Positions 16,718 through 19,109 of a DNA stretch of 23,303 nucleotides are shown piece by piece; position 1 is the first letter of the stretch; each line of letters opens with the position of its first letter. Source of the DNA: a virus; the IMG/VR virus record IMGVR_UViG_3300025695_000098, positions 1 to 23,303 of that record. The stretch is one strand, 5' to 3'. Both the position numbers and the translations under genes were made by a program. The notes beneath the pieces are model-generated. The model saw nothing but the letters and a program-made list of their open reading frames with translations, did not search any database and was not told where the DNA came from.

Positions 16718-17488
16718 ATGGCAGAAGCTATAAACACTTATCAAGAACCTCAACCTGAAAATCCAGAGCATGTAAAAGAAATGCTTGAGAAAGTAGAAGG
16801 TAGTCAACAAGACCCTGAACGTCCTGAGTGGCTACCTCAAAAGTTTAAATCCCCTGAAGACATGGCTAAAGCTTACTCTGCTTTAGAAGGTAAGCTAGGT
16901 AAGGGGGAAGATACAACAGAGGAAACTAGCGGAGCAGAAGAAGTAGAGGTATCTGGTAACGAGAACCCTACAGAAGTAGCAGACTTACTAGATAGTAAAG
17001 GATTAGACTTTGACGTATTCGCTCAAGAGTACGCTGAGAATGGTTCACTATCTGAGGATGCTTATGCTGCTCTAGAAGAAGCAGGTTTTCCTCAGGCTAT
17101 GGTTGACACATGGGTAGCAGGGCAGGATGCTTTAGCTTCTCAGATGAAGACAGAAATATATTCAATGGCAGGTGGTACTGAACAGTACTCTGGCATGATA
17201 CAATGGGCATCAGATACCTTACCTGAAAATGAGATTGATGCCTTTAATGCAACGATGGAATCGCAAGACATGAATATGATTAAGCTTGCGGTACAAGGTC
17301 TTAATGCACGATATCGTTCTGAGGCAGAGCCTAGACTTCTCTCAGGAGAAACAGGTGCTGTATCCTCAGGTGGGAGATTTGAAAGTAATGCGGAACTCAC
17401 TGCTGCTATGAGTGACCCTAGATACGGCAAAGACCCTGCTTACAGGCAACAGGTAGCTGATAAGTTAGCTAAATCTAGCCTGTTCTAA
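16718..17488 (+). CDS. Capsid assembly scaffolding protein, gp9-like
   Basis: The 256-aa protein lies between portal and capsid genes, as T7 gp9 does (307 aa). It is very acidic in the first half (KGEDTTEETSGAEEVEVSGN and around), with PEWLPQKFKSPEDMAKAYSALEGKLG near residues 38-63, a motif common in podovirus scaffolds. Its C-terminal part has FESNAELTAAMSDPRYGKDPAYRQQVADKL, the typical capsid-contacting end with charged helix. It shapes the procapsid and leaves before maturation. CGGAG precedes the ATG. Confidence 0.92.
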   Translation: MAEAINTYQEPQPENPEHVKEMLEKVEGSQQDPERPEWLPQKFKSPEDMAKAYSALEGKLGKGEDTTEETSGAEEVEVSGNENPTEVADLLDSKGLDFDVFAQEYAENGSLSEDAYAALEEAGFPQAMVDTWVAGQDALASQMKTEIYSMAGGTEQYSGMIQWASDTLPENEIDAFNATMESQDMNMIKLAVQGLNARYRSEAEPRLLSGETGAVSSGGRFESNAELTAAMSDPRYGKDPAYRQQVADKLAKSSLF

Positions 17489-17506
17489 CATGTTGCAAAT
17501 GGGATT

Positions 17507-17529
17507 GAGGAAGTCTCCTTTCCTTCCTC
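17507..17529 (+). ncRNA. Hairpin P0 abutting the capsid-leader RNA core
   Basis: GAGGAAG at 17507-17513 pairs with CTTCCTC at 17523-17529 (7 bp, 9-nt loop). It ends exactly one base before helix P1 of the three-way junction begins at 17530, so the two helices could stack end to end. It lies 19 nt after the scaffold stop codon. No U-run follows, so it is not a standard terminator. Confidence 0.5.
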
Positions 17530-17685
17530 TCTCCTTCTAAATATATAAATTCACCACCTGAAGTTACGTCATACGTGCAGAAGCTTCGCTACCTTAGGAC
17601 GTTATATACGGCTGCTTGGGCAGGTGTCAGCAGGAGTATCTAGGCATTAACTAATACTCCTGCTTCTTATATATTTAGAAGGGGA
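17530..17685 (+). ncRNA. Structured RNA candidate: three-way junction upstream of capsid gene
   Basis: The 156-nt element is closed by helix P1: 17530-17548 pairs with 17667-17685 over 19 bp (18 Watson-Crick and one G-U, no bulge) at a distance of more than 100 nt. Inside, P2 pairs CACCTG 17555-17560 with CAGGTG 17621-17626, and can extend past a GGG bulge with AAG 17561-17563 and CTT 17615-17617. P3 pairs 17629-17639 with 17654-17664 (11 bp) and can extend by 3 bp past one bulged base to a 7-nt loop at 17644-17650. The interior of P2 (17564-17614) has several competing pairings. No family is recognised. The strand is inferred from the neighbouring genes. Confidence 0.65.
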
Positions 17686-17808
17686 AACCCTACTCAAAAT
17701 TACTACTCACGAATACCCCTGACCCCTTGCGAGGGACAATCTGTCGGAGAAAGTATAGTAAAGTTGAGGCACAACTTAAACTTAAATTAAACTAACGAGG
17801 TAATAATT
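17686..17808 (+). promoter_or_regulatory. Rest of the capsid-gene leader with small hairpins and RBS
   Basis: This non-coding stretch carries short hairpins: 17724-17727 with 17732-17735 (CCCT/AGGG), 17735-17738 with 17742-17745 (GACA/TGTC), and AAGTTG 17761-17766 with CAACTT 17772-17777. The RBS ACGAGG lies about 10 nt before the capsid ATG, in an AT-rich, unpaired-looking stretch, which suits high translation. A capsid-gene promoter, like T7 phi10, would be expected in or before this region, but no element can be assigned with confidence. Confidence 0.45.
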
Positions 17809-18930
17809 ATGGCACAAGCCGCTTCAAACCCTGCTTATAGCGTAAGCTTTCAGGGACAAAATAACCTCACAGGTGACGTTCGTGACCTCTTTCTAAAGCT
17901 ATATGCTGGTGAAGTCCTAACTGCCTATGAGGAAAAGAAAGTCCTAATGGACAAAGTGCGTACTCGCACAATTTCAAAAGGTAAATCCGCATCATTTCCA
18001 ATGACAGGACGAGCAACTGCTGAGTACCTGACCCCTGGAAATGAGATTACTGGTGGGTCAATTCGTGCAGGTGAACGTATTGTAACTATTGATGATTTGC
18101 TCATCTCTAGCCAATTCATTGCTAACATTGATGAAGCAATTAACCACTACGATGTACGCTCAATCTACTCTAAAGAAGCTGGTATTGCATTAGCTAACGA
18201 AGCAGACCGTAACGTAGCTCGTATGCTTGTTAAAGCTGCTCTATCAACTAATGCTACTGCTGCTGCTGGTCTTATCCAAGACTACAAAGCATTTAGTGAG
18301 GAAGACTTTACTGGTAACGTCACTGTTGGTACAGCTACTGCTGACCTACTTGACCCTGCAAAGTTAGCCAAAGCTATCTTTGATGCTAAGAAGACTATGG
18401 ACATTGCTAATGTTCCTTCAGAAAATGCAGTAGTAGTACTTCCACCAGAACAGTACTACGCATTAATGGATGTAACTGATGGTTCTAAGCTGACATACAT
18501 GAACTCAGACTTTGGTGGTAACGGTTCAGTTGCTTCAGGTCTAGTTCCAGCTATTGCAGGTATTCCTGTAATCATGTCAAATCATGCTAACGTAACTAAC
18601 TTGTATTCAAGTTTAACAACAGGTGCTGGTACTGAAGGTGAAACATCAGACAATGCTCCACTAGCTAACACTGCTGGTTCAGGAAGAACAACTCATTATG
18701 ACTTACCAACTACTGACGTAGACGGTAGAGATATGGTTGCTGAAGCTTCTCTAATCAAAGGCTTTGTATTCACTCCAGAAGCTGTAGCTACAGTAAAGCT
18801 ACTAGACTTAGGTATGGAATCTGAGTATCAAATTAATCGTCAAGGCACACTAATGGTTGCTAAGTATGCAATGGGACATAACGTACTACGTCCTGCTTCA
18901 TGCATTGCATTGCTTGACGCTAACGCTTAA
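17809..18930 (+). CDS. Major capsid protein, gp10-like
   Basis: The 373-aa protein forms the icosahedral shell. It is recognisable from the T7-like start (SNPAYSVSFQGQNNLTGDVRD, LFLKLYAGEVLTAYEEKKVL), then TISKGKSASFPMTGRATAEYLTPGNEI near 58-84, DLLISSQFIANIDEAINHYDVRS near 95-117, and VVLPPEQYYALMDVTDG near 209-225. The fold family is HK97. T7 gp10A is 345 aa. I see no slippery heptamer near the end that would make a longer 10B-type product. It has the largest non-coding leader in the window, and a terminator follows 11 nt after the stop, so it can be made as a strongly expressed unit. Confidence 0.96.
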   Translation: MAQAASNPAYSVSFQGQNNLTGDVRDLFLKLYAGEVLTAYEEKKVLMDKVRTRTISKGKSASFPMTGRATAEYLTPGNEITGGSIRAGERIVTIDDLLISSQFIANIDEAINHYDVRSIYSKEAGIALANEADRNVARMLVKAALSTNATAAAGLIQDYKAFSEEDFTGNVTVGTATADLLDPAKLAKAIFDAKKTMDIANVPSENAVVVLPPEQYYALMDVTDGSKLTYMNSDFGGNGSVASGLVPAIAGIPVIMSNHANVTNLYSSLTTGAGTEGETSDNAPLANTAGSGRTTHYDLPTTDVDGRDMVAEASLIKGFVFTPEAVATVKLLDLGMESEYQINRQGTLMVAKYAMGHNVLRPASCIALLDANA

Positions 18931-18940
18931 CTCTAACACG

Positions 18941-18973
18941 AAGGGAGAGGTTTCTAGAGCCTCTCTCTTTTTA
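18941..18973 (+). terminator. Intrinsic terminator after the capsid gene
   Basis: AAGGGAGAGG at 18941-18950 pairs with CCTCTCTCTT at 18960-18969 (10 bp with one G-T, 9-nt loop), and the descending arm runs into a T-run (18968-18972). This is a good rho-independent terminator shape. T7 has its phage terminator T-phi in the same place, right after gene 10. It probably lowers, rather than stops, expression of the tail genes. Confidence 0.8.
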
Positions 18974-18986
18974 TTAGGAGATACTA

Positions 18987-19109
18987 ATGCCACAGGTAGG
19001 TACAAAAAAGTATAGTTATAATAAAAAAGGTATGGCAGCAGCTAAGAAAGAAGCAAAGGCTACAGGTAAGCCTATGCAAAACTTAGATAAATATAAGAAG
19101 AAGAAATGA
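18987..19109 (+). CDS. 40-aa Lys-rich virion-module protein
   Basis: The ORF follows TTAGGAG by about 7 nt and comes directly after the terminator. The 40-aa product reads MPQVGTKKYSYNKKGMAAAK and continues with KEAKATGKPMQNLDKYKKKK, so it is very basic. The GTKKYSYNKKGMAAAKKEAKATGK pattern resembles small Lys-rich proteins that lie between capsid and tail genes in marine podophages. It may bind DNA or be a minor virion part. The next gene begins 1 nt after its stop. Confidence 0.7.
   Translation: MPQVGTKKYSYNKKGMAAAKKEAKATGKPMQNLDKYKKKK

Follow-up and report, generated by a model that had tools for sequence, protein, structure and literature searches.

A mobile RNA module complementary to 23S rRNA in the capsid leader of T7-like marine phages

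The scaffold-capsid gap and the fold of the capsid leader

The window, a stretch of 23,303 nucleotides (IMG/VR virus record IMGVR_UViG_3300025695_000098, positions 1 to 23,303), is a fragment of a T7-like (Autographiviridae-type) phage genome. Its genes lie on the + strand in the usual order: RNA polymerase, DNA polymerase, ribonucleotide reductase, head-tail adaptor, scaffold, capsid and tail. The scaffold and capsid genes are separated by 320 nt, the size given in the original prediction. A terminator-like hairpin with a T run (GAGAGGTTTCTAGAGCCTCTCTCTTTTT) is found directly 3' of the capsid gene (18931-19000), a placement like that of the T7 late terminator. In pelagiphage HTVC025P (L232 2133-3388) the gap between scaffold and capsid genes is filled by an HNH endonuclease and several small genes, which marks this position as an insertion hot spot in the wider family. 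The features of the region are listed below; the 23S rRNA helices (H67-H71) carry the names used for the general 23S structure.

16718-17488, + strand: scaffold gene
17489-17808: scaffold-capsid gap, 320 nt
17507-17529, + strand: hairpin P0, 5' of P1, found in nearly all relatives with compensatory changes
17530-17548, + strand: 5' arm of helix P1, pairing with 17667-17685; relatives that lack the insert have a simple hairpin with a short loop here
17550-17630, + strand: inserted antisense domain, complement of 23S domain IV minus H68 and H71 (profile match 17551-17630, E 6e-23)
17563-17580, + strand: antisense block I (GTTACGTCATACGTGCAG), complement of the 23S strand 3' of H71 (UGCACGAAUGGCGUAA)
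17585-17600, + strand: antisense block II (TTCGCTACCTTAGGAC), complement of 23S GUCCUAAGGUAGCGAA, 5' of H71
17600-17612, + strand: shortened H69 complement (CGTTATATACGGC), absent in CRP-7 and L159
17617-17630, + strand: antisense block III (TGGGCAGGTGTCAG), complement of the 23S strand at H67/H68 (CUGACRCCUGCCC)
17630-17663, + strand: hairpin B, which accompanies the antisense domain; strongly covarying, with a bulge near the loop
17667-17685, + strand: 3' arm of helix P1
17722-17742, + strand: 21-nt block ACCCCTTGCGAGGGACAATCT, found in nearly all leaders, once per genome
17809-18930, + strand: capsid gene

A large structured RNA had been proposed in this leader, and the predicted fold lies far beyond chance. 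The segment 17530-17685 has a minimum free energy of -58.7 kcal/mol (z -6.93), a value reached by 0 of 200 dinucleotide shuffles, while the folding energy of 17507-17777 corresponds to a z of -4.77. The architecture described earlier is recovered: the 19-bp long-range helix P1 pairs exactly 17530-17548 with 17667-17685 and closes a three-way junction with an imperfect hairpin (17550-17630) and the bulged hairpin B (17630-17663), and P0 abuts P1 on its 5' side.

The covariation check proposed with the original prediction revealed compensatory changes in P1 and in hairpin B. Pairing of P1 is maintained in this way across 69 leaders with 16 different arm pairs; the fifth pair, for instance, is found as C-G, A-T or T-A and the eighth as A-T or G-C. 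P0 and hairpin B likewise covary, the pairing of the latter being judged from single folds because MAFFT misaligned it in alignment A1. On the + strand the P1 arms display 15 G-U cells versus 1 A-C cell, showing that the RNA is the mRNA strand. Conservation of a long helix through compensatory changes in the mRNA, as seen for P1, is expected of an RNase III site. Scans with Rfam release 15 gave 0 matches in the window at the gathering threshold and chance matches only (E 7-9) in an E-value search of 17480-17830, in line with the earlier view that no known family could be recognised; scans of other loci yielded a sub-threshold isrG match only.

The most conserved stretch of the leader is the 21-mer ACCCCTTGCGAGGGACAATCT (17722-17742), which is exact in 73 of 80 loci. 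Its single copy per genome in seven ~40-kb relatives rules it out as a multi-copy phage promoter.

A search with the capsid protein identified 80 close relatives in IMG/VR, whose scaffold-capsid gaps mostly cluster around 170-215 nt and around 320 nt, some others being 272 nt long. Both P0 and P1 are present in almost all aligned leaders, and in most of them P1 is a short-loop hairpin. A P1 interior of ~110 nt is found in the window and in 14 others of the 76 rows of the capsid tree. On this tree of 76 capsid genes its distribution requires a minimum of 7 gains or losses, and well-supported branches force at least 4 of these. The ~110-nt insert is a module that comes and goes at one place. The original prediction was right about the structure but missed that its interior is separable, is absent from most relatives and carries sequence antisense to 23S rRNA.

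A second, unrelated insert of ~61 nt (CCTTACAGGAATGTGCAATCCGCACTGTAGGGTG...) is located directly after P1 in L013 and also in L011, L016, L018 and L112-L125, with at least 3 changes on the capsid tree; the capsid leader accepts, therefore, different RNA modules. Neither this insert nor the conserved 21-mer has a match in the rrn operon. Among 70 scored capsid relatives, 47 have neither of the two inserts, and the near-complete (~40-kb) insert-free relatives (G001-G005 and G008-G010) have no match to the ~110-nt module anywhere in their records.

Complementarity of the module to 23S rRNA domain IV

The core of the insert, TTCGCTACCTTAGGAC..GTTATA, complements a near-universal segment of 23S rRNA around H69-H71. 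Three blocks make up the match. One corresponds to the strand 3' of H71, another to the strand that runs 5' of H71 through H69 and the last to the strand at H67/H68, while the rRNA hairpins H68 and H71 are skipped by the phage element. The reverse complement of the insert scores 63-66 against E. coli 23S, compared with shuffle maxima of 40-44 and a sense-strand score of 23, and the antisense strand of the domain IV segment alone stands out when the whole rrn operon is compared. Twelve elements outscore 300 shuffles when compared with the 23S of one or more host groups, which is never the case for the sense strand. The complementarity is imperfect: all type-A elements lack one base in the H69 part and several positions of block I differ. 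Within block II, TCGCTACCTTA is invariant in 16 of 16 aligned elements and is the longest rRNA complement. Single-sequence folds predict it to be largely unpaired in the element, mostly in an apical loop. The element thus combines extended complementarity to a host RNA beyond chance with a pairing region that is conserved and, in predicted folds, largely accessible, two features expected of a trans-acting antisense RNA.

A sequence profile built from the 16 phage elements only matches the minus strand of the 23S in 5 of 5 rRNA genes tried, those of Sulfitobacter, Vibrio, E. coli, Leptolyngbya and Prevotella (E 8e-8 to 6e-6). It also recovers L133, L165, L127, L128, L169 and L161, none of which was used in its building.

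The elements carry signatures of host lineage. In phage CRP-7, whose host belongs to the Rhodobacteraceae, TCGTTACG and GGCGTCAGA match the 23S of Rhodobacterales and not that of E. coli; TCGTTACG and CACCGGGCAGGCGTCAGA are found in CRP-7 as in Rhodobacterales 23S, the E. coli counterparts being TCATTACG and GTCACA. The element of L165 has its best score with E. coli 23S. In the columns covered by at least 10 elements, base changes that keep 23S pairing stand against those that break it at 53 versus 10 when counted by sequences and at 12 versus 8 when counted as distinct changes, a result that is weakly supportive of rRNA pairing and not decisive.

Pairing was modelled by cofolding with a 190-nt fragment of Sulfitobacter (Rhodobacterales) 23S domain IV, the energies being net of unfolding both partners. 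In this model, which disregards ribosomal proteins and tertiary structure, long elements reach net energies of -45 to -62 kcal/mol (window -55.7, L110 -61.6, CRP-7 -57.5), versus -7 +/- 3 for shuffles. These three values and those for L165 (-42.3) and L161 (-29.7) compare with about -5 to -8 for dinucleotide shuffles, while L133 (-41.0), L169 (-32.9) and the Vibrio phage element L127 (-21.9) were set against mononucleotide shuffles. Minimal elements of gut phages (L162) pair weakly (-13.8 versus -4.9 for shuffles). The predicted complexes of long elements have 55-65 intermolecular pairs and leave H68 and H71 of the rRNA folded; in that of CRP-7, whose element is devoid of the H69 part, H69 is predicted to remain folded too. 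Different phages drop different rRNA hairpins yet retain the junction strands, and we take this hairpin-skipping pattern as the strongest sign that the target is folded or folding rRNA.

Distribution of the element in other phages

A 17-base piece of the insert occurs in 31 IMG/VR stretches, some with entirely different flanks, and a pattern requiring the H71 skip matched further phages. Long elements adjoin genes coding for the terminase large subunit (TerL) in L107, L110, L131, L132, L137, L159 and the cultured roseophage CRP-7, and L133 has a shorter element near a terminase gene. The element is positioned just upstream of the terminase start in CRP-7 and L159, and 3' of the terminase gene in L131, L133 and L137. 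At every locus inspected, in about ten separate contexts, it is carried by the coding strand. The annotated start of the CRP-7 terminase falls inside the antisense element (L179 3015-3130; MK613349 record ~54240-54353), and the true one is more likely a downstream ATG that matches the start of the L159 protein.

In smaller relatives the boxes UUCGUGCA and UUCGCUACC are part of a hairpin or loop that is immediately followed by an intrinsic terminator (7 matches: L155, L161, L162, L165, L167, L169 and L170). Scanning with the reversed box sequences as a control gave 35 matches, 2 of them outside genes and 0 of the 35 before a terminator. Most other matches of the phage pattern scan were discarded as chance matches inside genes.

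Two Vibrio phages code for a further structured RNA with the motif GTGCA-TAAGA-TTCGCTACCTTAGG. This RNA (L127 1420-1700, and L128) contains GTGCATAAGATTCGCTACCTTAGG and adjoins tRNA genes; a long hairpin and a terminator lie downstream of it, and the annotation of OX241562 assigns part of the RNA to a small hypothetical protein. The pattern with the H71 skip, GTGCAN{3,6}TTCGCTACCTTAGG, has one chance match, inside a coding stretch, in 84,980 species genomes, which identifies the long form as a phage feature, and a BLAST search of plasmids with the insert gave no match.

Loci sharing only TACCTTAGGACGTTATA (L083, L088, L111, L099, L105 and L109) were initially grouped by a 21-22 nt match to the H69 complement. 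They were dropped as a third class because their net pairing is within that of shuffles and they have no profile match. Three unrelated phage contigs among them (L099, L105 and L109) have in common another conserved RNA, located immediately 3' of a gene, of the form ACACC-loop-GGTGTGCCCGGCTGCTGGGC...AGGAGTCGTGCCC..GGAATG...AGTGAGCAC, which has no Rfam match; its loop resembles the complement of 23S H69, with pairing not above that of shuffles. L130 and L136, which on inspection look like divergent rRNA, were left out.

Proposed function and comparison with known systems

We favour, with a probability of about 0.58, the interpretation that the module, which sits in the P1 loop, is a mobile antisense RNA by which the phage targets 23S and interferes with the host 50S subunit, likeliest during its assembly. 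The conserved two-hairpin leader RNA (P0 and P1) of a T7-like marine phage family would receive the mobile ~110-nt module in the loop of P1. This helix would be a holder, a hairpin conserved for a reason of its own, perhaps so that RNase III can process the scaffold-capsid transcript, with a loop that takes up the module and could set it free. The module would act in trans late in infection, either as a domain of the mRNA or as an RNA of ~120-156 nt cut out at P1, for example by RNase III. Its three blocks would base-pair with the strands converging on the H67-H71 junction, H68 and H71 staying folded. The antisense RNA may in this way bind domain IV in nascent or free 50S particles and block or divert host ribosomes, interfering with their assembly or recycling. 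The intersubunit region of domain IV is among the last parts of the 50S subunit to mature and is inaccessible inside active 70S ribosomes; a target in assembly would therefore spare ongoing translation. This would serve the phage, which needs capsid synthesis.

Several observations can be read differently. The element might be a relic, a captured piece of antisense rRNA that became structural (for mRNA stabilisation or as an RNase III site) and does not pair with 23S. It does fold on itself, its own hairpins covary and P1 is conserved with or without it. Such a reading appears unlikely, however, when the invariant TCGCTACCTTA, predicted to be largely unpaired, is also the longest rRNA complement, when the rRNA hairpins skipped vary by phage while the junction blocks stay the same, and when host-lineage bases are retained. 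Action in cis, the 23S complementarity tethering the 50S subunit to the phage mRNA and enhancing translation of the following capsid or terminase gene, would fit the position of the element in the capsid leader of the window clade and just upstream of the terminase start in CRP-7 and L159; the capsid needs high expression, which speaks for the same idea. We consider it quite unlikely, given that the element follows the terminase gene in L131, L133 and L137, that the small relatives occupy 3' regions immediately ahead of terminators, and that most relatives of the window lack the element yet have the same capsid leader.

A MazF-type toxin is known to cut 23S in H70, and a bound antisense RNA could mask such a cut site. 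On this basis the element could, instead of harming the ribosome, counter a host defence nuclease that acts in the vicinity of H69-H71, either by shielding 23S or by sequestering fragments of rRNA. Window-type elements nevertheless stop short of the UUCCU cut site of H70, which is reached only by those of CRP-7, L159, L161 and L165, and no link to a defence system was seen, making such protection improbable. A role in packaging or assembly was suggested in the original prediction, and the element does neighbour TerL genes in L107, L110, L131, L132, L133, L137, L159 and CRP-7 and the capsid gene in the window clade. The idea is hardly credible for a module that close relatives with the same capsid lack anywhere in ~40-kb records and that has no Rfam match, and it leaves the 23S complementarity unexplained. 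There is as little reason to favour a feature acting at the DNA level, a copy of a homing endonuclease target in 23S (an I-CeuI-type site) that serves mobility. The core overlaps the known I-CeuI site in 23S and the module is gained and lost, but the element keeps to the coding strand in all of about ten separate contexts, the covariation of its RNA hairpins includes G-U pairs on this strand, a missing base alters the site and no endonuclease gene adjoins the element in the window.

Phages take over host translation, and we know of no natural viral RNA antisense to rRNA. The open-access literature searched revealed no phage RNA antisense to rRNA, and the paper describing CRP-7 (PMC6918029) makes no mention of such an RNA. 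The odds are about even that the elements make up a mobile and widespread family of phage antisense RNAs whose shape fits the folded H67-H71 junction and which are exchanged horizontally among marine phages of several families, the first natural viral class to attack or capture bacterial ribosomes by base pairing with rRNA. As a natural RNA class it would be categorically new, antisense pairing itself being a known principle. If 23S is bound, this would be a new way of controlling ribosomes and would show a design route for RNA directed against a folded rRNA junction. The region concerned hardly varies among bacteria and lies near the decoding and peptidyl-transfer sites. Cultures exist of both CRP-7 and its host, a Rhodobacteraceae strain, which makes the idea directly testable.

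With the phi29 packaging RNA, to which the leader had been loosely likened, the window RNA shares being a structured phage RNA of similar size with a long closing helix. The resemblance does not extend further: the search of all Rfam families gave no covariance-model match, the module is not kept by all close relatives, near-complete ones included, and its core is explained by complementarity to 23S. The T7 gene 10 leader and T7 RNase III sites also offer late-leader stem-loops between the scaffold and capsid genes, but P1 in the window carries a removable insert, and to our knowledge the rRNA antisense module has no T7 counterpart. Archaeal and eukaryotic box C/D and H/ACA guide RNAs, likened by function only, are natural RNAs with split complementarity to the rRNA core; the phage element has longer pairing and sits in bacterial viruses, and we know of no modification machinery associated with it. 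Trans-acting bacterial antisense sRNAs likewise combine conserved unpaired blocks with imperfect pairing to an RNA target, as suggested here by sequence, and the small phage relatives end in intrinsic terminators as they do. Unlike them, the phage element would target rRNA rather than mRNA, its predicted pairing is split in three blocks that track a folded rRNA junction, and it is phage-encoded and mobile.
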